NCBI GenBank assembly: GCA_009692615.1
Contig: SHYW01000019.1
Location: 1-54,910, forward strand
Direction of reading: 5' to 3'
Length of the DNA: 54,910 nucleotides
Source: Deltaproteobacteria bacterium
GTDB taxonomy: Bacteria > Desulfobacterota > Binatia > UBA9968
A program made the position numbers and the translations under genes. How positions within the stretch are numbered: the first letter of the stretch is position 1; every line of letters begins with the position of its first letter. Positions 25,798 to 38,245 of this stretch are shown piece by piece. The notes under the pieces were generated by a model that saw only the letters and a program-made list of their open reading frames with translations, was not told the origin of the DNA and ran no database searches.

Positions 25798-27078
<1,281 letters not shown>

Positions 27079-27322
27079 GTGAGAGCCTCCAGTCGCTAAG
27101 CCGGTGGCGGCCGCCATGTTCCGGCGCGCCGCCTGCCATCGGGGACTGTACTGAAAAAATGCTCCGAAGTCACCCCCTCGGCGGCGTTGGCTTGACCGGA
27201 GGCTTTGCGCCATTTTTGGACTGAGGCCACGCGTGCGTCGATGATTACCGGCACGTGCCGAACTTGACAGTCTTGGACAAAGTCATGAGAATGATTTCAT
27301 TGCGGTTCGTTGGCGTTTTGCC

Positions 27323-28333: not shown

Positions 28334-28791
28334 ACTACATCGTTCTCGACGACTTTCCTGCTTGGTCGACATATATCTTGGCGAGCTTTGTGCTGGTGAC
28401 ATTTTGGCTGGCGTGGTGGCTGCTCTTACGCACCCTGCGTCGCCGGCGAATCGCGCGGTTGGATGGCTCGGCACGCGCGCGCTCCATCCATCCGCCATGG
28501 GCATTTGCCATCGCCGCCAGCGCCGCGCTCGTGTTTATGGCGTCATCGATGTTCGGCCGTTTCCATGCGGTGGCGATCGATCGGCTGCAACTCGAGCTGA
28601 TCTATTTATGGCCGCAGTCGCCGGTGGCGATCAATGTCAGCGAGCTGGTCGATATAAAACTTGCGCGCGCCGGGCGAAACTGCGGTCACTTGGAAATCGC
28701 CACGCGCCAAGAGCGTTATCTCAGTGTTGCTTTTCGCAAGTGCGAAAATGCCGAGGCGCTGATCAAACAGGTTGGGTTGCGCAGTCAATGA
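28330..28791 (+). CDS. Hypothetical protein with two membrane segments, 153 aa
   Basis: No family is recognised. The protein has a first membrane segment near 13-35, a basic linker (LRRRRIARL), a second segment near 58-75 and a soluble C-terminal domain of about 75 residues with [21 protein letters not shown]. That domain recalls PH-like sorting domains that evaluate side-chain-poor residues, but this is a guess. The start is GTG overlapping the stop of the MAPEG-like gene, which suggests translational coupling in the ancestral operon. Confidence 0.6.
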
Positions 28792-28819
28792 GCCGCTATT
28801 TTATGTGAAGGTGATCGTC

Positions 28820-29698
28820 ATGGATTTTCACGGAGTGTTTCCTTATCTGATCTCGCCCATCGATGCCGCGGGCGCAGTGCAGGCGGAAGTGCTGGCGCGC
28901 TTATGCGATGATTTGATCAAAGCCGGCGTACACGGATTAACTCCGTTGGGTTCGACTGGCGAATTCGCATACTTATCTTGGACTCAACGGCGCCGGGTTG
29001 TTGAAGTCGTGATCGAGGCGGCGCGTGGGCGGGTGCCAGTGATCGCCGGAGTCGCTTCGACGACGATTGCCGATGCGGTCAGGCAGGCGCGCGAGTTCGA
29101 GCGGATGGGAGCGAGCGGCATTCTTGCCATTCTCGAAGCGTACTTTCCGCTCAGCGATGACGGCGTGTTTCAATATTTCAAAGCCATCGCCGAATCGGTG
29201 TCGCTGCCGGTGGTGCTCTACACCAATCCAAACTTTCAGCGATCCGATTTAAGCTTGCCGGTGATCGATCGGCTGAGTCTAATTGCGAACATCGGCTATA
29301 TTAAAGACGCGTCGAACAATACCGGCCGGCTGTTGTCGATTATCAATTTAGTCGAAGGGCGCATGAAAGTCTTCGCGGCCTCGGCGCATATTCCAGCGAC
29401 GGTGATGCTGATCGGCGGCGTCGGCTGGATGGCCGGGCCGGCCTGCGTCGCGCCGCGCCAAAGCGTCGAGCTTTACGATCTGTGCCGCCGCGGCGAGTGG
29501 AGTAAAGCGATGGAGTTGCAGCGGCCGCTGTGGGCGCTCAATCAAGCTTTCGCGAAATATAATCTCGCCGCGTGCATCAAAGGCGCCCTCGAACTTCAGG
29601 GTTACGTCGTGGGCGCGCCCTTGCCGCCGCAAGCGCCGCTGTCGGCCGAGGCGCTGGAATATGTCAAGCGGACGCTCATCGCTATCGGCGCGCTGTAG
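28820..29698 (+). CDS. Dihydrodipicolinate synthase/N-acetylneuraminate lyase family protein
   Basis: These are Schiff-base TIM-barrel aldolases or lyases. The 292 residues show [11 protein letters not shown], the phosphate/carboxylate loop PLGSTGEF, the tyrosine of VLYTNPNF and the Schiff-base lysine in GYIKDASN (K162). In true DapA the N-terminal motif is usually GTTGE, so GSTGE and the general divergence leave the substrate open. The ATG at 28820 follows GAAGG. It is the first gene of the run leading to the Grd-like genes and could supply or consume a keto acid there. A house-keeping dapA is less likely in this setting. Confidence 0.82.
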
Positions 29699-29790: not shown

Positions 29791-30792
29791 ATGAGGCAAA
29801 TGAATTGCGGTAAGTTCACCGTCGGCGCGATCGTGGCGGCATGGCTACTATGCTGCATCGGCATTGCGGTCGCGGCGACGCCGGCGCCAAATAAACGCGT
29901 GCGCATACTCTATGCCGACTTCAGCGAGCGCATGGGTTTGTTCTTCGTCGCCAAGGATCAACGATTCTTGGAAGAGCAGGGCTTGGACGCGGACCTCGTT
30001 CAGGTAAACACCGGTCCGGTGGCAGTGGCGGCGATGGCCGCCAACGAAGCCGAGTTCTACACTGTGTCGGCCACCGGTTCCGCTCTTGGCGCCATCTCTA
30101 GCGGGCTCGACTTGGTCTGGGTCGCGGGGATGATCAATAAACTCGACGGCTACTTTTACGTCGCGCCGAAAATCCAAAAGCCCGAGGATCTGAAAGGCAA
30201 GACGCTCGGTGTACAAAGCTTCGGCGGCGGTATCTGGATGTTTGTCATGATGACCTTGGATCACTGGGGATTGAATCCGGAACGCGATAAGATTCAGATG
30301 CGGGTGATCGGCGACCAGTCGGTCTTGGTGCAATCGCTAAACGCCGGGCTGATCGATGGCTCGGTGTGGGGCTACGCCTACAATCCCGCCTTGCAACGCA
30401 GCGGCGGCCGGCTGTTGGCCGATTTGACGACGCTCAACATTCCGTACCAGGGAACCGGACTAGTGGCGCGGCGGGCCTTTGTTGCCAGCTCGCCGGACAT
30501 CGTAGAAAAGACTTTACGCAGCTTCGTCAAGGCCAACAGTTTTGTCCGGGAAAAGAGCAATCAGGCGGCGGTGGTGCGGAGCATCCGCAAATGGTTGCGG
30601 CTATCGCCCAACGATAACGCCGATGACTTGTACGAACGCATGCGCCTGCTCTACGACCGGCGCATCGCACCGACCCGCGAGGGCATGCAAAACGCCCTAC
30701 GGGTGCTGGGTAAAGTCGATCCCAAGTACACCAAGCTAAAGGTAGAAGATCTGGTTGACGATCGCATCGCACGCAAGTTGGAGAGTCCATAA
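29791..30792 (+). CDS. NMT1/SsuA-type solute-binding protein (paralogue 1)
   Basis: This is a periplasmic binding protein of the NitT/TauT type. The 333 residues open with a signal peptide (VGAIVAAWLLCCIGIAVAA). A type II binding fold follows, with MGLFFVAKDQRFLEEQGLDADLV, EAEFYTVSATGSALGAISSGLDLVWVAG and DLKGKTLGVQSFGGGIWMF. The ATG at 29791 follows GGAG. It is clearly paralogous to 33718-34707 (GSALGA, GLDLV, VAG, LKGK, IQS/VQS-GGG-W-M all shared). No permease or ATPase is adjacent. Ligand unknown; proximity suggests the substrate of the Grd-like system. Confidence 0.85.
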   Translation: MRQMNCGKFTVGAIVAAWLLCCIGIAVAATPAPNKRVRILYADFSERMGLFFVAKDQRFLEEQGLDADLVQVNTGPVAVAAMAANEAEFYTVSATGSALGAISSGLDLVWVAGMINKLDGYFYVAPKIQKPEDLKGKTLGVQSFGGGIWMFVMMTLDHWGLNPERDKIQMRVIGDQSVLVQSLNAGLIDGSVWGYAYNPALQRSGGRLLADLTTLNIPYQGTGLVARRAFVASSPDIVEKTLRSFVKANSFVREKSNQAAVVRSIRKWLRLSPNDNADDLYERMRLLYDRRIAPTREGMQNALRVLGKVDPKYTKLKVEDLVDDRIARKLESP

Positions 30793-30840: not shown

Positions 30841-32181
30841 ATGATTCGCATTGTCCATATCCTCAATCAATTTTTTGCCGGTATCGGCGGCGAAGAGAAA
30901 GCCGACATTCCAGTGGCGGTCGCCGACGGCGCGGTGGGCGCGGCGCGGGGGCTCCAGGTGCAGTTGGCGGAGCGCGGCCAAGTGGTCGCGACGCTTTACT
31001 TTGGCGATAATTATTTTCATGAACATAAAGATGCCGCGCTGACGGCGCTTCTAGCCGAGTTAGAGAAACAAAAACCAGACGTGGTGGTCGCCGGTCCTGC
31101 GTTCAACGCCGGCCGATACGGTTTGGCCTGCGCCGAGATTTGCCAAGCGGCGAGCGAGAAGCTTGGACTTCGCTGCGTCACCGGCATGGAGCCGGAAAAT
31201 CCCGGCATCGGCGTCTACTGCGATTATCACAACGACAAAGTTTTTTTGCTGCCCACCGCCGAGACCGCCTCCGGCATGGCCCGCGCATTGACGGCGCTTG
31301 CGCCCTTCGCTTGCCGCCTGGCCGCTGGTGAAGAAATCGGCCCCGCCGCCAAGGAAGGCTATCTGCCGCGCGGCATTCGTAAGCTGGTGCGCGTCGAGCG
31401 CAGCGGCGCCGATCGCGCCATCGATATGCTGCTCGCTAAAGTTGCCGGCCAGCCGTTCACCACCGAAGTACCGATGGAAGTGTGGGACAAGGTCGAACCG
31501 GCGGCGCCGTTGGCCGATGCCGCAGCGGCGAATTTAGCTGTCATCTGCACCGGCGGCGTGGTGCCCTGGGGCAATCCGGATGGTTTTAAAACTTATCGCA
31601 ATACTTTTTGGCGCAAGTATAATTTCTCCGAGCTGGCGAAGTTAGAGCCGGGCAAATGGGAAGCGGTGCACGGCGGCTACAACGTCGCCTTTATGAATCA
31701 GAACCCGCACTATGGCATGCCGCTCGATGCGCTGCGTGCGTTGGAAGCCGAGGGGAGAATCGGCCGCGGTAAACTCTATCCCGCTTATTATGTCATTCCC
31801 GGCAACCAAGGTTCGCCGGCGGTGATGCGCCGGGTCGGCCAAGAAATTTCTGCCGATTTGAAAAAAGACGGCGTGCAAGGGGTTTTGCTCGTCGCCACGT
31901 GAGGAACCTGTAGTCGCAGCGGCGCTGTGATTAGCAAGGAACTCGACAGAGCAGGTCTCCCAGTGGCGATGATCAGTGCGATGTATCCAGTGGCGGAACA
32001 AGTTGGCGCGAGCCGGATTGTCAAAGCGGTGGCGATTCCCCATCCCTGCGGCGATCCCAGTTTGCCGGCGGCGCTGGACAGCGAGTTGCGCCGTGAGATC
32101 GTCTCGACGGCGCTTAAGGCACTGGAAGCGAAGGTCGACACGACGACTGTGTTCACGCCTAGGATTGCGGCGAATGGATGA
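30841..32181 (+). CDS. GrdB-like reductase selenoprotein, read through an in-frame TGA (Sec354)
   Basis: This is a homologue of the gamma subunit of glycine/sarcosine/betaine reductase component B, whose selenocysteine attacks the substrate carbon during reductive C-N cleavage. From the ATG at 30841 (GGAGGGAGAG upstream) the frame has IVHILNQFFAGIGGEEKAD, the GPAFNAGRYG block, TGMEPENPG, GGVVPWGNPDGF and HGGYN. It then reaches LLVAT, TGA at 31900-31902, GTCSRSGA, KELDRAGLPV, RIVKAVAIPHPCGDPSLP and ends at 32181 (446 aa). UGTC replaces the UGTCTRCG of clostridial GrdB at the expected place. A SECIS-like hairpin follows the TGA. A cysteine-free truncated product of 353 residues would lack the active site. 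Catalysis on glycine is not implied. Confidence 0.9.
31911..31933 (+). promoter_or_regulatory. SECIS-like hairpin for the GrdB-like TGA
   Basis: UAGUCGCAGC pairs with GCUGUGAUUA through ten base pairs (two G-U) around the loop GGC at 31921-31923. The loop begins 18 bases after the TGA. A stem inside the coding region, close behind the UGA, with G at the start of the loop, is what bacterial SelB requires. Confidence 0.75.
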
Positions 32182-32399: not shown

Positions 32400-33704
32400 A
32401 TGCGTCTTGAGTTGGCTGAGTTTCCGGTTTCGCGCATTGCGTTGGGCGAACAGTTTAGTTATTCCGCCGGACAATTAACCGTCGACAAATCCGCGATCGA
32501 GCAGTCGGTTCTGCAAGAAAGTAGAATAGAGCAAGCGTGGCTCGATGTCGTCGCTCCCGGCGACAGAGTCAGAATCACCGGCATTCGCGACGTGGTGGAA
32601 CCGCGCGTGAAGGTTGTCGGCTCGGGGCAAGTGTTTCCTGGTGTGCTTGGGCCGGTGGAACCGGTGGGTGACGGGCGGACCCATCGGCTGTCCGGCATGG
32701 CCGTGTTCGTCACCGCGGAATATGAAGGCACGGTGCGCGCCGGGCTAGGCGTGCAACGCAGCGCGATTCTCGACATGTGGGGCGCCGGCGCCGCGGCTTC
32801 GCCGTTCAGCGCTTTGAATGGACTGGTGCTGAACTTGCGTTTGGCGAAAGGTTTATCGGAACTCACCGCGCACACGATTATTCAACGAGCGGCGCTTGAA
32901 ACAGCCAAGCGCTTGGCGGAAGTCACCATCGGATTGGACCCGACGCAAATTGAAGTCTTCGAATTGGGCGGCGCCGATTCGACGTTGCCGAAGGTTTTAC
33001 TGATCCAAGGTTGCTTGACCGACGCAAGCAACCCGCACTCCGGTGTCGGCTATTTCGGCTTGCCGATCCGCGATTCGCTGGCGACGGTAATTCATCCCAA
33101 CGAATTTCTCGACGGCGCCTTCACCATGTACGCGACCCGCTGCCTGGCTTACTTCCCGGTCACTTGGGATTGGCAGAATCATCCGCTGCTGCTCGGACTG
33201 TATCGCGCCCATCGCCGGCAAATAAATTTTCTCGGCGTGATCCTCGAACGGATCGCCTTCGATACCTTTCACGGCAAAGAAGTGATCGCGCAAAATACCT
33301 CACAGCTGGCGACTATGCTCGGCGCCGAGGCGGCACTGGTGTCGTGGACCGGTTCGGGCAACGCGTTCGTCGATGTCATGCTGACACTGCGCGCCTGCGA
33401 GCAGCGCGGCATCAAGACCACGCTCACGACTTACGAATACGGCGGCAAAGACGGCGTCGATTCGCCGCTGCTATTTTACGCGCCGGAAGCGAGCGCGATT
33501 GCGAGCACGGGCAGCCGCGATCGATGGGTCGATTTGCCGGCGGCGGACAAGATCGTCGGGCCCTATGACGAAATCAAAGTGTTGAATTATCCCGGCGCGC
33601 CGCTGACGCCGGCGCGCGGGCCGTTCACCCTCGATGCCCGCGACATGATTGTCGGCGGCGTCGATTATTGGGGCCGCGATGCGTGGCAGTGCGCGGCGTA
33701 TTAA
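32400..33704 (+). CDS. GrdE-like component B subunit, paralogue with retained cysteine (C248)
   Basis: This is a homologue of the glycine/sarcosine/betaine reductase component B proprotein. In clostridial GrdE the chain is cleaved before a cysteine near position 242 (from memory), and the cysteine becomes a pyruvoyl group that binds the substrate amine. The 434 residues begin with MRLELAEFPVSRIALG and include DVVEPRVKV, HRLSGMAVFVTAEYEG, LDMWGAGAAASPFS, ATRCLAYFP with C248 at the matching place, WDWQNHP, and EYGGKDGVDSPLLF. The residue before the cysteine is Arg, not Asn. It forms a pair with the GrdB-like selenoprotein upstream. Confidence 0.85.
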   Translation: MRLELAEFPVSRIALGEQFSYSAGQLTVDKSAIEQSVLQESRIEQAWLDVVAPGDRVRITGIRDVVEPRVKVVGSGQVFPGVLGPVEPVGDGRTHRLSGMAVFVTAEYEGTVRAGLGVQRSAILDMWGAGAAASPFSALNGLVLNLRLAKGLSELTAHTIIQRAALETAKRLAEVTIGLDPTQIEVFELGGADSTLPKVLLIQGCLTDASNPHSGVGYFGLPIRDSLATVIHPNEFLDGAFTMYATRCLAYFPVTWDWQNHPLLLGLYRAHRRQINFLGVILERIAFDTFHGKEVIAQNTSQLATMLGAEAALVSWTGSGNAFVDVMLTLRACEQRGIKTTLTTYEYGGKDGVDSPLLFYAPEASAIASTGSRDRWVDLPAADKIVGPYDEIKVLNYPGAPLTPARGPFTLDARDMIVGGVDYWGRDAWQCAAY

Positions 33705-33717
33705 CATGGAGCGCTCG

Positions 33718-34707
33718 ATGAAAAAGTTTTGCCGATTGGTAATTTTCGTTTTGCCGGTGATCGCGGCATTGGCCCCGCGGGCTTTTGCCGCGACGCGGGT
33801 GGTGATCGCTTATTCATCGCTGAACGAGCGCGGCGCCGGCGCGCTGCTGGTCGCCCGGGATCAAGGCTTTTTTCGCAAGCACGATCTCGACGTGCAGTTG
33901 ATCTTCATGCGCAATGCCGCGGTCGCCTTGTCGGCGCTCTCCGCCGGCGAAGCGCAATTCTATTCCGGCTCGGCCAATGGGTCGGCGCTGGGCGCGATGG
34001 CGAATGGACTCGATCTAGTGTTTGTCGCGGGCTTGGCGAACAAACTCAACGGCACCATGGTGGCGTCGCCGGCGATTCAATCGCCCGCCGATTTGAAAGG
34101 CAAAAACATCGCCATCCAGAGCATCGGCGGCGGCGTCTGGATGATCACGCAGTTGGTGCTTGAACACTGGGGCCTCGAAGCGAAGCGCGACGCGATCAAT
34201 TTGCGTATCGTCGGCGACGAGTCGGTGATGGTGCAGTCGTTGATTCTCGGCACGGTTGACGCGACTTACGCGGGCTACGCCTACGCGACCATGCTCAAGA
34301 AGCAGGGGTTTCGCGTGATGGCCGACTTGACCAAGTTGGGCGTGCCGTTTCAGAGCACGGCGATCTTGGCGCGGCGCAGTTATTTGAGCACTTCGTCGGC
34401 GACGGCGGAGAAAGTGATCCGCACTTTGGTCGAATCGATCGCTTTCATTCAGCGCCCGGCCAATAAGGCTTCCGTGGTCGCAACGCTGACCAAGAATTTG
34501 CAGATCGTTCGGCCGGAGGATGCGGAAGAGGGTTACGAAGTGATTCGCAACGTTTATGAGCGGCGTGTGTATCCGAATGTCGAGGGGATCAATAACGCGA
34601 TTCGTCTGCTCGGTATTGGCAACGAAAAGATTCGCCAGCTCAAGGCGGTGAATCTGATCGACGATACCATTGTTAAGAAATTGGAAAAGGAAGGACTGCT
34701 GCAATAA
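33718..34707 (+). CDS. NMT1/SsuA-type solute-binding protein (paralogue 2)
   Basis: The 329-residue periplasmic binding protein has a signal peptide (LVIFVLPVIAALAPRAFA) and the blocks GALLVARDQGFFRKHDLDVQLI, AGEAQFYSGSANGSALGAMANGLDLVFVAG, LKGKNIAIQSIGGGVWM and NAIRLLGIG. The ATG at 33718 is chosen over the ATG at 33706 because GGAG at 33708-33711 is well spaced from it. It lies between the two GrdE-like genes and is a duplicate of the protein at 29791-30792, so the pair GrdE-like plus binding protein looks repeated. Ligand unknown. Confidence 0.85.
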   Translation: MKKFCRLVIFVLPVIAALAPRAFAATRVVIAYSSLNERGAGALLVARDQGFFRKHDLDVQLIFMRNAAVALSALSAGEAQFYSGSANGSALGAMANGLDLVFVAGLANKLNGTMVASPAIQSPADLKGKNIAIQSIGGGVWMITQLVLEHWGLEAKRDAINLRIVGDESVMVQSLILGTVDATYAGYAYATMLKKQGFRVMADLTKLGVPFQSTAILARRSYLSTSSATAEKVIRTLVESIAFIQRPANKASVVATLTKNLQIVRPEDAEEGYEVIRNVYERRVYPNVEGINNAIRLLGIGNEKIRQLKAVNLIDDTIVKKLEKEGLLQ

Positions 34708-34788: not shown

Positions 34789-36093
34789 ATGCAACTCACA
34801 TTAGCTGAATTCCCGGTGCGCCAGATTCGTCTTGGCGATGTTCACCGCTATCACGATGATATCCTCGACGTGGATCGCGACGATCTCGTGCGCTTGGCGC
34901 GGCAAGATCCGCGCATCGATAGCGCGGAGCTGGCCGTCGTCGCGCCCGGCGAAGCAGTGCGGGTCACGGGCATTCGCGATGTCGTCGAGCCGCGCTACAA
35001 ATTCACCAACGATGCGCAAGTATTTCCCGGCGTCATCGGTCCGGTGGCGACGGTCGGCGACGGATTGACGCATCGTTTGTCTGGCATGGCCGTGCTCGCC
35101 ACGGCGGCTTACGAGGGCACGATTCGCGCCGGCACCGGCGTGCAGCGTAGCGCGATTCTCGACATGTGGGGTAGCGGTGCCGCGGCGTCGCGTTTCAGTA
35201 CTCTCAGCCATTTAGTTTTGATTCTGCGCATTCGCGCCGGCTTGGGCGAGCTCGAGGCCCATGGGGCGATTCAAAAGGCGGCGTTTGCCGTCGCCTGCAA
35301 AGCGGCTGAGACGACGCGCGGCATGACGCCGCCGCGAAGCTCATGCCATGACTTGCACTGGCAATCGCAACAGCCGCGCGTGGTGCTGATCCAAGGCTGC
35401 ATCACGCAAGCGCAGCAGCCTCATTCCGGCGTAAGTTATTACGGCCTGCCGATGCGCGAATCGTTGCCGACCGCGCTCCATCCCAATGAGTTGCTCGACG
35501 GCGCAGTGACGATGAACACGACTCGCGGTATCGGTTACTATCCGACGACATGGGACTGGCAGAATCATCCGCTGGCGTTACGACTTTATCGCGCTCAGGC
35601 TGCGGGTGAGCTGGCGTTCGCCGGGGTGATTCTCGAACGGATATCCTACGAAACTCATCACGCCAAAGAAGTCGTGGCGCACAACACGGCGCAACTGGCG
35701 AAAAGTTTAGGCGCCGAAGCGGTGCTGCTGACATGGCTCGGCTCGGGCAACGCGTTTGTCGAGATGATGCTGACGATTCGCGCCTGCGAGCGCTTGGGCA
35801 TCAAAACCGTTCTAGTCACCTACGAGTACGGCGGCAAAGACGGCGTCGATTCGCCACTGCTGTTTTATGATACGGCGGCCGATGCGGTTATCAGCACCGG
35901 CAGCCGCGACCGCTGGATCGACTTGCCCGCGGCGGAAAAAGTTATCGGGCCGTACCAAGACATTCGTGTCTTAACTTATCCCGGCGCGCCGACGACGCCA
36001 GCGGCGCATGCTTTGACCCTCGACGCCCGCGATATGATCATCGGCGGCGTCGACAATTGGGGCGGCGATAAGTGGGCGTGCGAGTTGTATTAG
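34789..36093 (+). CDS. GrdE-like component B subunit, paralogue lacking the pyruvoyl cysteine (G247)
   Basis: The 434-residue protein is a close paralogue of 32400-33704 throughout (TLAEFPVRQIRLG, DVVEPRYKF, HRLSGMAVLATAAYEG, LDMWGSGAAASRFS, WDWQNHPL, EYGGKDGVDSPLLF). At the site where the first copy has TRC, this one has TTRGIG, so the residue that would become pyruvoyl is glycine. Other cysteines, in LIQGC and RACE, are shared by both. It may be a catalytically different or structural partner, or act with its paralogue as a hetero-oligomer. The ATG at 34789 has only a weak ribosome-binding site. Confidence 0.83.
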   Translation: MQLTLAEFPVRQIRLGDVHRYHDDILDVDRDDLVRLARQDPRIDSAELAVVAPGEAVRVTGIRDVVEPRYKFTNDAQVFPGVIGPVATVGDGLTHRLSGMAVLATAAYEGTIRAGTGVQRSAILDMWGSGAAASRFSTLSHLVLILRIRAGLGELEAHGAIQKAAFAVACKAAETTRGMTPPRSSCHDLHWQSQQPRVVLIQGCITQAQQPHSGVSYYGLPMRESLPTALHPNELLDGAVTMNTTRGIGYYPTTWDWQNHPLALRLYRAQAAGELAFAGVILERISYETHHAKEVVAHNTAQLAKSLGAEAVLLTWLGSGNAFVEMMLTIRACERLGIKTVLVTYEYGGKDGVDSPLLFYDTAADAVISTGSRDRWIDLPAAEKVIGPYQDIRVLTYPGAPTTPAAHALTLDARDMIIGGVDNWGGDKWACELY

Positions 36094-36109: not shown

Positions 36110-36814
36110 GTGGCGGAGAAAGCGAAGCAAATCATTCCCATCGGCGGCGGCGGATTTTACCGCGATGCAGAAAATTTAGAATTGGAGAAGTACGTCATCC
36201 GGCAAAGCGGTGCGCAGCATGCGCGGGTCTGTTTCATTCCGACGGCGAGCGGCGAGCCGGATCATTATGTCGCGAGTTTTTATTCGGCATTCCTGAAACT
36301 CGGCTGCCAACCTTCGGTGCTGACGTTTTTCAAACGGACGCCGGACTTGCGCTCGTTCTTGCTCAATCAAGATGTCATCTATGTCGGCGGCGGCAACACC
36401 AAGAGCTTGATCGCCGTATGGCGCGATTGGGGTGTGATAGAAATTCTCCGGGAAGCATGGGAATCCGGCATCGTTTTGACTGGCGTCAGTGCTGGGGCGA
36501 TCTGTTGGTTCGAGCAAGGGCTGACCGACTCGTTTTCCGACGGGCTGTGTACGCTCGATTGTATGGGCTTTCTCCCCGGCAGCTGCTGTCCCCATTTCGA
36601 CGGCGAAGCGCAGCGCCGGCCGGCGTTTCACAAACTGCTCGCCGCCGGTGACATCGCCGCCGGCGTCGCCATCGAAGACTGGACCGGCGTGCATTACATC
36701 GGCGGCGAAATTCACAAAGTCATCGCCTCCAAGCGCGGTGCCCGCGCTTACAGCATGCGCGTCGCTCATGGTTCGGTGCAGGAAGTGGCGCTGCCGGTGG
36801 AATACCTGGCGTAA
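36110..36814 (+). CDS. Peptidase S51 (dipeptidase E/cyanophycinase-like)
   Basis: This is a class I glutamine-amidotransferase-like serine peptidase. The 234 residues have the glycine-rich start PIGGGGFYRDAE, the block DVIYVGGGNTKSL, the nucleophile elbow GVSAGAICWF (S127) and CPHFDGEAQ with the presumed histidine. Family members cut Asp-X dipeptides or cyanophycin. GTG at 36110 follows GGAGG at 36101-36105. The gene begins 16 bases after the second GrdE-like gene, so it is likely transcribed with the Grd-like cluster and may free an amino acid for it. Confidence 0.86.
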   Translation: MAEKAKQIIPIGGGGFYRDAENLELEKYVIRQSGAQHARVCFIPTASGEPDHYVASFYSAFLKLGCQPSVLTFFKRTPDLRSFLLNQDVIYVGGGNTKSLIAVWRDWGVIEILREAWESGIVLTGVSAGAICWFEQGLTDSFSDGLCTLDCMGFLPGSCCPHFDGEAQRRPAFHKLLAAGDIAAGVAIEDWTGVHYIGGEIHKVIASKRGARAYSMRVAHGSVQEVALPVEYLA

Positions 36815-36842: not shown

Positions 36843-38245
36843 TCATTTCGTCGGGCTTTTACCGTCGCGCAGGGCCACCTGGCCCTTGCGCGATGCGTCG
36901 ATGGATCCGCCGATAATTCTTGCCGCTTCTTGGGGCGCGTGAAAGCCGGTGGAGTTTTCCGCTTCGACGAAGTCCAAGAAAAACTGCGCGCGCCGTTGGA
37001 AGCCGCGCGCTGGATCGAGTTGGCCGTCGTCTTTTCCGTTGGCCTTGGCGCGTTTCAAATCGCCGATCAGCTCGATCAGCGCGTCCATGGCCAGATTGCG
37101 CAAGCGCTGGGTGCGTTCCTGAATGGTCTCGACCCGCGCTTTTAATTCGGCTTCGGGAATCTTGTGGCAGGTCTGGCAGGCGCGGTTGATGTTGAGCAGC
37201 GGACTGCGCACATGGTGGTCGCTCATCTTCTGCGCGCCCTCGCGTTTGTAGGGCATATGGCAGTCGGCACAGCCGACGCCGGAGCGGGCGTGAATCCCCT
37301 GGCTCCATAGTTCGAACTCGGGATGTTGCGCCTTGAGCACCGGCGCGCCGGACTCGGCGTGGGTCCAGTCTTTGAATTTTTGCTCGTCGTAGTAGGCGAG
37401 GATTTCCTCCACCTTCAAACCTTTGGCCCAGGGATAGACCAAGCGTTTCTCCGGCCCTTTGAAATAATATTCCACATGGCACTGGCCGCAGACGTAGGAA
37501 CGCATCTCCTGGCGCGTCGCCATGGCATTGACGTCGTAGTCTTTGACGCCTTGGCTGGCTTTGAGTGCGCGCATACCTTCGATGAAGCCCGGCCGGGTGA
37601 TGCGCAGCTGCATGGTGTCTGGCGCGTGGCAATCGATGCAGGCCACCGGGTGGGTGACTAGCTTGCGCGCTTCGGCAAAGGGCAGCTGATTCATCTTCTC
37701 GAAACCCTTGATCAGATCGCCGCCGCCGGCTTTGCGATAGGGAACATAGATGGACGCGTGGCAGTGCAGGCAGGTGCCCGGCTGTTTCACCGCGATCTGG
37801 CGCTCGGTGTAGGTCTGGTCGTCGAGCATGTAGGCGTGGCGCGCTCTTCGCGAAAATCCTTGGCGAAGGCGTAGCCGGCCCACATGACTTTCAAGCGCGT
37901 GTCATCTTCGACCTTCGATTGGGCCACCACCGAGCGCGGATCTGTTTGGCTCGGCGTTCGCGGTATCGCTTCGCTGCCGCCGAAGCGGGTGCGCACCTGG
38001 TCGACGGTGCGCCGGTAGCCGTCGTACTGGAGCGGGAAGTTTTTACCCCAGATCGCCGGATCGTCGATCTCGTCGTTGAGCTCGACCACCCGGTAGAAAG
38101 GATTTTTGCCTTCCTGTTTTCGTTCGAAGACGTTGATGAGCAAACCGACGGCGACGACGGCCAGGAGCGCCGCGCCGAGGGCGACGCCGACGATCAGTTT
38201 GGCGCGGCGGGATTTAGTTTCTCGTGAGTCGTATGTTTCGGCCAT
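36843..38245 (-). pseudogene. nrfA: Ammonia-forming nitrite reductase NrfA with a one-base frameshift
   Basis: NrfA is the periplasmic pentahaem cytochrome that reduces nitrite to ammonium. From the ATG at 38245 the frame gives a membrane anchor (about 17-39), NPFYRVVELNDEIDDPAIWGKNFP and WAGYAFAKDFREER, then shifts. The rest continues in another frame as HAYMLDDQTYTERQ to the stop at 36843. One G missing within 37838-37843 (GAGCGC-GCCACGCC) explains it. Five CXXCH sites follow (CLHCH, CIDCH, CGQCH, CADCH, CQTCH); the first, catalytic site has H where E. coli has K (CXXCK). Apart from the shift the gene looks complete, so a sequence error is possible. Confidence 0.85.

Follow-up and report, generated by a model that had tools for sequence, protein, structure and literature searches.

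A GrdB-type selenoprotein gene in a Binatia genome and its apparent place in a proposed class of selenium-dependent reductases without GrdD

The contig SHYW01000019.1 of the Deltaproteobacteria bacterium assembly GCA_009692615.1 (Desulfobacterota, Binatia, UBA9968), a stretch of 54,910 nucleotides referred to here as the window, carries at positions 30841 to 32181 of its forward strand a frame that resembles GrdB, the selenocysteine (Sec) subunit of protein B of the glycine reductase family, and that contains an internal TGA codon. Is this frame a real selenoprotein gene, and to what kind of system does it belong? The usual product of glycine-type reductases is acetyl phosphate, which is made via protein C (GrdC and GrdD), and GrdD is credited with acetyl-phosphate formation in the protein C of Eubacterium acidaminophilum. 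The initial annotation of the locus had described an orphan protein in a cluster without GrdA, GrdC and GrdD, which delivers its product to something other than GrdA. The analysis reported here led us to another answer: the window probably encodes a substrate-specific protein B, composed of the GrdB-type subunit and two alternative GrdE-type alpha subunits, of a Sec-dependent reductase class that lacks GrdD.

When the TGA at positions 31900-31902 is translated as Sec, the frame stays open from 30841 to the stop codon at 32179-32181. The sequence around the Sec residue is ...VLLVAT-U-GTCSRSGAVISKEL..., with the motif U-GTCSRSGA, in which the UxxC motif reported by the initial annotation is present as U-GTC. 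The product matched the NCBIfam model TIGR01918 over residues 3-438 with 455 bits (cut-off 65), which places it in the broad protein B family, and PF07355 with 386 bits. A TGA stands at the Sec codon in all five orthologues that were compared (from the relatives G001, G002, G004, G011 and G024). The ratios of nonsynonymous to synonymous change (dN/dS) before and after the TGA were 0.08 and 0.07 against G004, 0.07 and 0.06 against G002, 0.14 and 0.19 against G001, and 0.13 and 0.14 against G011; synonymous change against G024 was saturated and the ratio not calculable. Because dN/dS is about equally low on both sides, the region past the TGA is under selection as protein, in agreement with the read-through into a conserved C-terminus that had been proposed. 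We concluded that the frame is a real Sec gene of the GrdB type.

The RNA past the TGA can form a hairpin with ten pairs, which had been described as resembling a Sec insertion sequence (SECIS) and as following 18 bases after the TGA. Ten pairs can form, but 18 bases is the distance of the apical loop GGC, and the stem starts 8 bases past the TGA. Folded alone, the hairpin was unexceptional (z -1.3). Its conservation is limited to the inner part: among 35 distinct own-clade sequences, the pairs +13/+27 to +17/+23 occurred in all and +18/+22 in 33, and the outer pairs +9/+31 to +11/+29 in just 12-16. All six inner pairs were present in 89 of 98 distinct GrdB sequences, whereas 500 re-deals of the 3' arms gave 42 such sequences on average and never more than 54, so that the predicted SECIS hairpin is supported by covariation. 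A search of the genome for the Sec machinery recovered every component: selB (410 bits) lies beside selA (617 bits) and selD (350 bits) on contig C70, and tRNA-Sec (74.9 bits) is on C142, all over their cut-offs. In the window itself, the Rfam search at gathering thresholds gave no match and no tRNA gene was found.

Profile search with the Sec-translated product did not assign it to any of the characterised enzymes, as it remained under the cut-offs of the glycine, sarcosine, betaine and proline reductase models: 414 bits with TIGR01917 (glycine GrdB, cut-off 602), about 430-431 bits with NF040794 (sarcosine GrdF, cut-off 800), 388 bits with NF040795 (betaine GrdH, cut-off 775) and 78 bits with the PrdB model (cut-off 300). 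No relatives of the window GrdB or of the first alpha subunit, E19a, were found by sequence in PDB at E 0.01. The genome has five full GrdB genes in total, whose Sec codon is TGA in every case; contig C181 adds a shorter relative. The latter (locus L036, 1401-2078) is PrdB/GrdB-like, has a TGA in frame at ...MIPY-U-PFC... and scored 113 bits with the PrdB model. Many other genomes of the class have short GrdB-like matches that contain one TGA and fall below the TIGR01918 cut-off; these frames apparently constitute a separate, common selenoprotein family.

GrdA and GrdC are not in the window, as had been stated, but the genome has both, adjacent to each other on contig C109. GrdA scored 183 bits with NF040748 (cut-off 130) and carries the motif CFV-U-TAAGAM, and GrdC scored 553 bits with NF040746 (cut-off 450). 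The description "without GrdA and GrdC" therefore only reflects the limits of the window. A contaminant origin of C109 was weighed, and the same GrdC-GrdA block, with shared flanking families, in the sister genome G001 counts against it. C109 does not hold a normal reductase operon, since B and E are not there and GrdD is missing. The absence of GrdD, in contrast, stood: the best match to NF040747 in the genome reached 26 bits (cut-off 350), so that a complete acetyl-phosphate-forming system was not recovered, and GrdD was over the cut-off in none of the 97 relatives surveyed. Weak matches of up to 28 bits occurred in 41 of the 97 and likewise in 7 of 14 control genomes; these are likely putative PlsX-type relatives. 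A tblastn search with the Enterococcus GrdD recovered the gene from both of the other reference operons but from no own-clade stretch. "Without GrdD" is thus true as far as searched, and it is the interesting part of the finding, the GrdB Sec family itself being already known. In passages of three papers that mention grdD (PMC9768040, PMC10059138, PMC10536192) the gene is described as present; the literature covered also included passages of PMC13188914, PMC1088965, PMC2398784 and PMC8318568.

Named genomes were scanned with a GrdC alignment, and the best 80 of 574 relatives were analysed; since these were ranked by likeness to the GrdC of this genome, their 38:42 split is not a frequency in nature. 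GrdD lies next to GrdC or is fused with it in 38 of the 80 loci and is not in the locus in 42; in six of the 42 (L142, L144, L147, L154, L190 and L202) the sequence past GrdC is shorter than 1.5 kb. The gene directly after GrdC is GrdA in 38 of these 42 GrdD-less loci and in 0 of the 38 GrdD-linked ones. Adding three plasmid references and 18 own-clade loci brought the comparison to 101 GrdC loci, 41 of them GrdD-linked and 59 GrdD-less (the 59 rows being about 57 distinct loci, as L129 and L130 agree with L095 and L086 in length and in match coordinates). L202 was left out of the GrdD-less group; its contig ends 119 bases past grdC, and its tail, residues and place in the tree are those of the GrdD-linked group.

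The results showed that the C-terminal tail of GrdC has 33-50 residues (35 proteins) or continues into GrdD (6 proteins) in the GrdD-linked loci, as against 0-22 residues in all 59 GrdD-less ones. R223, Y/F224 and K250 were each found in 59 of 59 GrdD-less proteins and K289 in 58 of 59, and none of the four in any of the 41 GrdD-linked proteins. Cys253, which aligns by eye with the active-site Cys of FabH, is kept in 101 of 101, and FabH-type synthases alone were returned when GrdC was compared with PDB by sequence. An exchange of Q368 for H, which had seemed diagnostic in 13 rows, was rejected (GrdD-less: 51 H, 7 Q, 1 E; GrdD-linked: 40 Q, 1 H). The GrdD-linked set formed one group in the GrdC tree (SH-aLRT 100) with L202 as the sole odd row; it was a quick tree of 98 of the 101 sequences with 19 of 95 inner branches unresolved and an arbitrary root. 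By these sequence features, GrdD-less and GrdD-linked loci have two distinct groups of GrdC. The GrdC on C109 has no tail, has R223, Y/F224, K250 and K289, is directly followed by GrdA and has no GrdD in its locus, which is not an independent test of its membership because the class was defined by the same data. As a separate observation, GrdC and GrdD form one open frame of 833-852 aa in six of the 38 GrdD-linked loci (L176, L182, L189, L195, L196 and L198), and such fused frames fit close contact of the two subunits.

GrdD-less loci were found in metagenome-assembled genomes or isolates labelled Deltaproteobacteria, Tectomicrobia, Nitrospinota, Chloroflexi/Dehalococcoidia, Acetothermia, Planctomycetaceae, Microthrix and Solirubrobacteraceae (Actinomycetota), and also in Alkalihalobacillus sp. 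BA299, Cytobacillus oceanisediminis, Brevibacillus massiliensis and Desulforhabdus sp. TSK. The recurrent partners around 51 of these loci were thioredoxin (9), thioredoxin reductase (4), SelB (3) and binding proteins; neighbour clusters 5 and 7 were ignored by eye as antisense-like frames. The Alkalihalobacillus operon has the order E-B-A-TrxB-C-TrxA-A with SelB behind it, TrxB and SelB being over their cut-offs and TrxA just under (138 against 140 bits). It stands beside a glycine-betaine BCCT transporter (680 bits, cut-off 650), and the transporter adjoining the Cytobacillus operon also exceeds this cut-off (690 bits). The alpha subunit of the Alkalihalobacillus operon is betaine-like, and the whole suggests a betaine reductase without GrdD. 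The window system thus apparently belongs to a widespread second class of reductases without GrdD that has not been described; no description was found in the literature covered, in which subscription papers were mostly outside the scope, so that an earlier description is possible.

By analogy with the known family, protein B would bind an alpha-substituted carboxylate X-CH2-COO(-) and its carbon-heteroatom bond C-X would be broken; the carboxymethyl group would pass to the Sec of GrdA and be reduced to the acetyl level with electrons from thioredoxin, and the FabH-like Cys of GrdC would then take up the acetyl group in thioester linkage. Less surely, GrdC would in the absence of GrdD transfer the acetyl group to CoA. 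The loss of GrdD together with the changes in GrdC suggests another acetyl acceptor, and CoA would be the simplest one because GrdC resembles FabH-type synthases. X could be a betaine-like, halogen or other leaving group. The alternative that survives best is an ordinary protein B served by A and C in trans, with an unrecognised substitute for GrdD, such as a phosphotransacetylase, and with acetyl phosphate still as the product. The first steps do look unchanged, since GrdC passes its curated model and keeps the FabH-like Cys. On the other hand, the missing tail and the differing residues 223, 224, 250 and 289 suggest a changed partner, and no substitute recurs beside the 51 GrdD-less loci, no genome search for phosphotransacetylase having been made; we regard this alternative as unlikely.

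The assignment of the window pair to a GrdD-less reductase also draws on its orthologues. In eight relatives of the same family (G008, G010, G011, G012, G017, G018, G020 and G024), a window-type pair stands on one strand in an operon B-E-GrdC-GrdA. The B subunits of these operons are 65-79% identical to the window B (79% over a 168-residue fragment) and the E subunits 64-71% identical to the window E. A ninth relative, G016, has E-C-A at a contig end, and in one stretch of G012 GrdA lies among B and E genes but GrdC is missing. Because the B-E pair shares an operon with GrdC-GrdA in the eight relatives, GrdA appears to be the natural acceptor, and the earlier proposal of another acceptor is not supported for this genome. 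GrdA was detected in 23 of the 28 surveyed relatives with a full-type GrdB, a count that leaves out G055 (GRDA 22.2 bits, no TGA) and G037 and G086 (partial GrdB, 67.9 bits); the five with a full-type GrdB in which no GrdA was found are G002, G003, G004, G023 and G034, and G025 has GrdA without a full-type GrdB.

Two GrdA/GrdC subtypes were observed in the family (C109; L085, L092, L095 and L086). The GrdA of this genome is 84-85% identical to the unlinked copies of G001, G005, G014 and G017 (second copy), and G017 carries both subtypes, one linked to a window-type B-E pair and the other unlinked. A hydantoinase-A-type gene lies next to GrdA beside the B-E-C-A operon in G010 and G017 (L088 and L094; HyuA domains were seen in L094, and the L088 gene belongs to the same cluster), possibly a hint to the substrate.

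Several observations weigh against our reading. Window-type B-E pairs are unlinked to A and C in the stretches read from G001, G028 and G033, and the GrdA of this genome is just 41-46% identical to the GrdA of the B-E-C-A operons; because the subtype differs, we only infer that the window protein B cooperates in trans with GrdA and GrdC of C109. None of the 14 control genomes passed the GrdD model, which thus gave no positive among them, and outside the own clade the absence of GrdD refers to the fetched loci only. The acetyl-CoA step is without direct support. An ADP-forming acyl-CoA ligase beside GrdA in G014 was rejected as such support and is only a weak lead, because a relative of it (TIGR02717, 164 bits, a 213-residue end fragment) occupies the same place in G023, directly after the macrodomain gene, where there is no GrdC-GrdA. 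Finally, GrdA and GrdC were not found in G002, G003 and G004, three genomes of the same genus that have GrdB genes; of these, G003 and G004 have a SelB over its cut-off, and G002 does not.

These three genomes favour a protein B that works without GrdA and delivers its product elsewhere, as the initial annotation had it: their GrdB genes keep the TGA, SelB is intact in G003 and G004, and the dN/dS of 0.06-0.08 between the window gene and those of G002 and G004 indicates that the gene is not decaying there. However, G003 is 67% complete, and G002-G004 also lack the macrodomain gene found next to GrdC in other genomes (G004 has just a 34% relative), so that GrdA and GrdC may be missing through a gap or through real loss. 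With GrdA and GrdC present in the genome itself, and with eight relatives in which they share an operon with the orthologous pair, we consider this model quite improbable for the window system; a GrdA-independent role may exist in G002, G003 and G004.

The residues at the active sites bear on the substrate of the proposed GrdD-less reductase. Sequences of at least 380 residues were aligned (106 B and 114 E). The pyruvoyl-forming Cys is present at its column in 0 of 47 own-clade E subunits, 9 of 31 from other GrdD-less loci and 34 of 36 from GrdD-linked loci, and the two GrdD-linked exceptions (L128 and L193) read SGSF, the betaine type. The genome has seven GrdE-type genes, in which this column holds Thr (E19a, E19b and the gene on C1), His (two), Phe and Ser. 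Since none of the seven alpha subunits has the Cys at this position, a free amine is an unlikely X, and the substrate is likely to be of another kind. The argument is strong but not absolute, as E19a has a Cys two residues later and one subunit has Ser, a residue that yields pyruvoyl groups in some other enzymes. Of the motif UxxCxxC, the window GrdB keeps the first Cys and has Ser for the second (U-GTC-SRS); among 37 own-clade GrdB proteins the first Cys is kept in 22, both are kept in one, and the second is missing in 36. A motif published for glycine GrdB, as given in the accessible part of PMC9751293, is present in the GrdBs of Acetoanaerobium and Photobacterium and absent in the window GrdB, GrdF and GrdH. 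The window pair thus shows neither a TIGR01917 match over the cut-off, nor this motif, nor the pyruvoyl Cys of the glycine reductase GrdB/GrdE.

According to the accessible part of PMC10838667, FarB of Cloacibacillus porcorum MFA1 is without CxxC and FarE is without pyruvoyl Cys residues, and several protein Bs feed one common system in this family. The own-clade losses of the second Cys in GrdB (36 of 37) and of the pyruvoyl Cys in E (47 of 47) match this account, and the alpha subunit E83 on contig C83 scored 240 bits with FarE, which might point to a fluoroacetate reductase of the lineage's own; but E19a and E19b reached only 108.6 and 97.7 bits with the FarE model NF053623 (cut-off 675), the feature is unspecific because betaine-type subunits are also without the Cys, and a FarA-like antiporter was not recognised in the window neighbourhood, all of which makes this identity very improbable. 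Weakest is the reading of the TGA as a true stop, with the downstream part either a remnant or a gene of its own: under table 11, gene callers close the frame at 31902, but the low dN/dS past the TGA, its retention in five orthologues, the SECIS covariation and the complete Sec machinery leave this practically no probability.

If the preferred reading, a protein B of a GrdD-less reductase, is right, a class with matching changes in GrdC would have a different product and energy yield, and this selenium chemistry would extend from fermenting anaerobes to groups that include soil, sediment and marine bacteria. Tentatively, and with somewhat less than even confidence, we propose a second Sec-dependent A/B/C class, reaching as far as Actinomycetota and Bacillaceae/Paenibacillaceae, that has no GrdD and a shortened and altered GrdC, that would couple C-N (or C-X) cleavage to acetyl-CoA formation, that would use several protein Bs for substrates other than free amines in each own-clade genome, and that would also occur in bacteria that do not ferment amino acids. 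The GrdC tail, residues 223, 224, 250 and 289 and the gene order C-A or C-D provide a sequence test with which annotations of "glycine reductase" can be sorted. Several protein Bs per genome without the pyruvoyl site would point to new substrates, possibly with trimethylamine formation or dehalogenation.

The features around the selenoprotein gene are given in Table 1. The two GrdE/GrdG-type subunits directly downstream of GrdB had not been mentioned in the initial annotation; E19b is 63% identical to E19a. By comparison, no GrdB match was found in the 19 kb stretch around the GrdE-type gene on C1. The order of gene families around the cluster is the same in the sister genome G004. The start of the binding-protein gene before GrdB was chosen at 29800, the longest frame starting at 29572. 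Assignment of the binding proteins as SaoX was rejected (23-30 bits against 300). The peptidase S51 gene also follows E in G002 (L111) and was not seen at that place in G004, so its membership in the system is doubtful. Upstream, on the other strand (25798-27213), lies a radical SAM protein of the anaerobic-sulfatase-maturase type with a terminal SEC-C motif, which has the same place in G004. It was rejected as a FarC-like activator, since it matches the maturase model with 477 bits (cut-off 349) and is 3.6 kb away on the opposite strand; FarC-like activation was further rejected because the window GrdB reads ATUG and so lacks the Ser of the STUG motif. Downstream, a minus-strand frame for a cytochrome c552 (nitrite-reductase-like) lies at 36843-38245; its match begins at profile position 61 and a second frame overlaps its start, perhaps owing to a wrong start or a broken gene.

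Table 1. Features at the GrdB-type locus of the window
Feature	Position	Strand	Basis and remarks
Dihydrodipicolinate-synthase-family aldolase, upstream neighbour	28772..29698	+	PF00701 193 bits; also next to the cluster in G004
NMT1/SsuA-like periplasmic binding protein just before GrdB	29800..30792	+	PF09084 57.8 bits; same place in G004
GrdB-type selenoprotein (protein B, Sec subunit), 446 aa	30841..32181	+	TIGR01918, PF07355, TGA conservation, dN/dS
Predicted SECIS hairpin inside the coding frame	31911..31933	+	Fold, covariation over 98 distinct sequences; conserved core 31915-31929, loop GGC
First GrdE/GrdG-type alpha subunit (E19a)	32400..33704	+	PF09338 292 bits; Thr at the pyruvoyl-Cys position, Cys two residues later
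NMT1/SsuA-like periplasmic binding protein between the alpha subunits	33751..34707 (chosen start)	+	PF09084 75 bits; same place in G004
Second GrdE/GrdG-type alpha subunit (E19b)	34789..36093	+	PF09338 282 bits; pyruvoyl-Cys position occupied by Thr
Peptidase S51 family gene after E19b	36110..36814	+	PF03575 174 bits

Compared with known systems, the window protein is only distantly homologous to the D-proline reductase PrdA/PrdB and has instead the full-length GrdB architecture. Against the sarcosine reductase GrdF/GrdG of Peptoclostridium acidaminophilum, the window B is 42% identical to GrdF and the window E 30% identical to GrdG, the two window alpha subunits scoring 200 and 182 bits with the GrdG model NF040793 (cut-off 780). 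The window system is unlike GrdF/GrdG and GrdB/GrdE in being without the pyruvoyl Cys, in having Ser for the second Cys and in having no GrdD; it is like them in the GrdB fold family, the Sec in UxxC, the PF09338 alpha subunit and the shared GrdA and GrdC. Against the betaine reductase GrdH/GrdI of Enterococcus gilvus, the window B is 35% identical to GrdH and the window E 31% identical to GrdI. That operon, unlike the window system, has GrdD, but the alpha subunits of both are without the pyruvoyl Cys, and the GrdD-less Bacillaceae operons with a betaine transporter share the GrdC class of the window system. With regard to FarB/FarE, so far as the accessible part of the source describes them, the window is without a transporter and radical-SAM operon of the farACEB kind and is GrdD-less, while both systems have a protein B without CxxC and an alpha subunit without the pyruvoyl Cys, and both are thought to feed a shared GrdA and GrdC.
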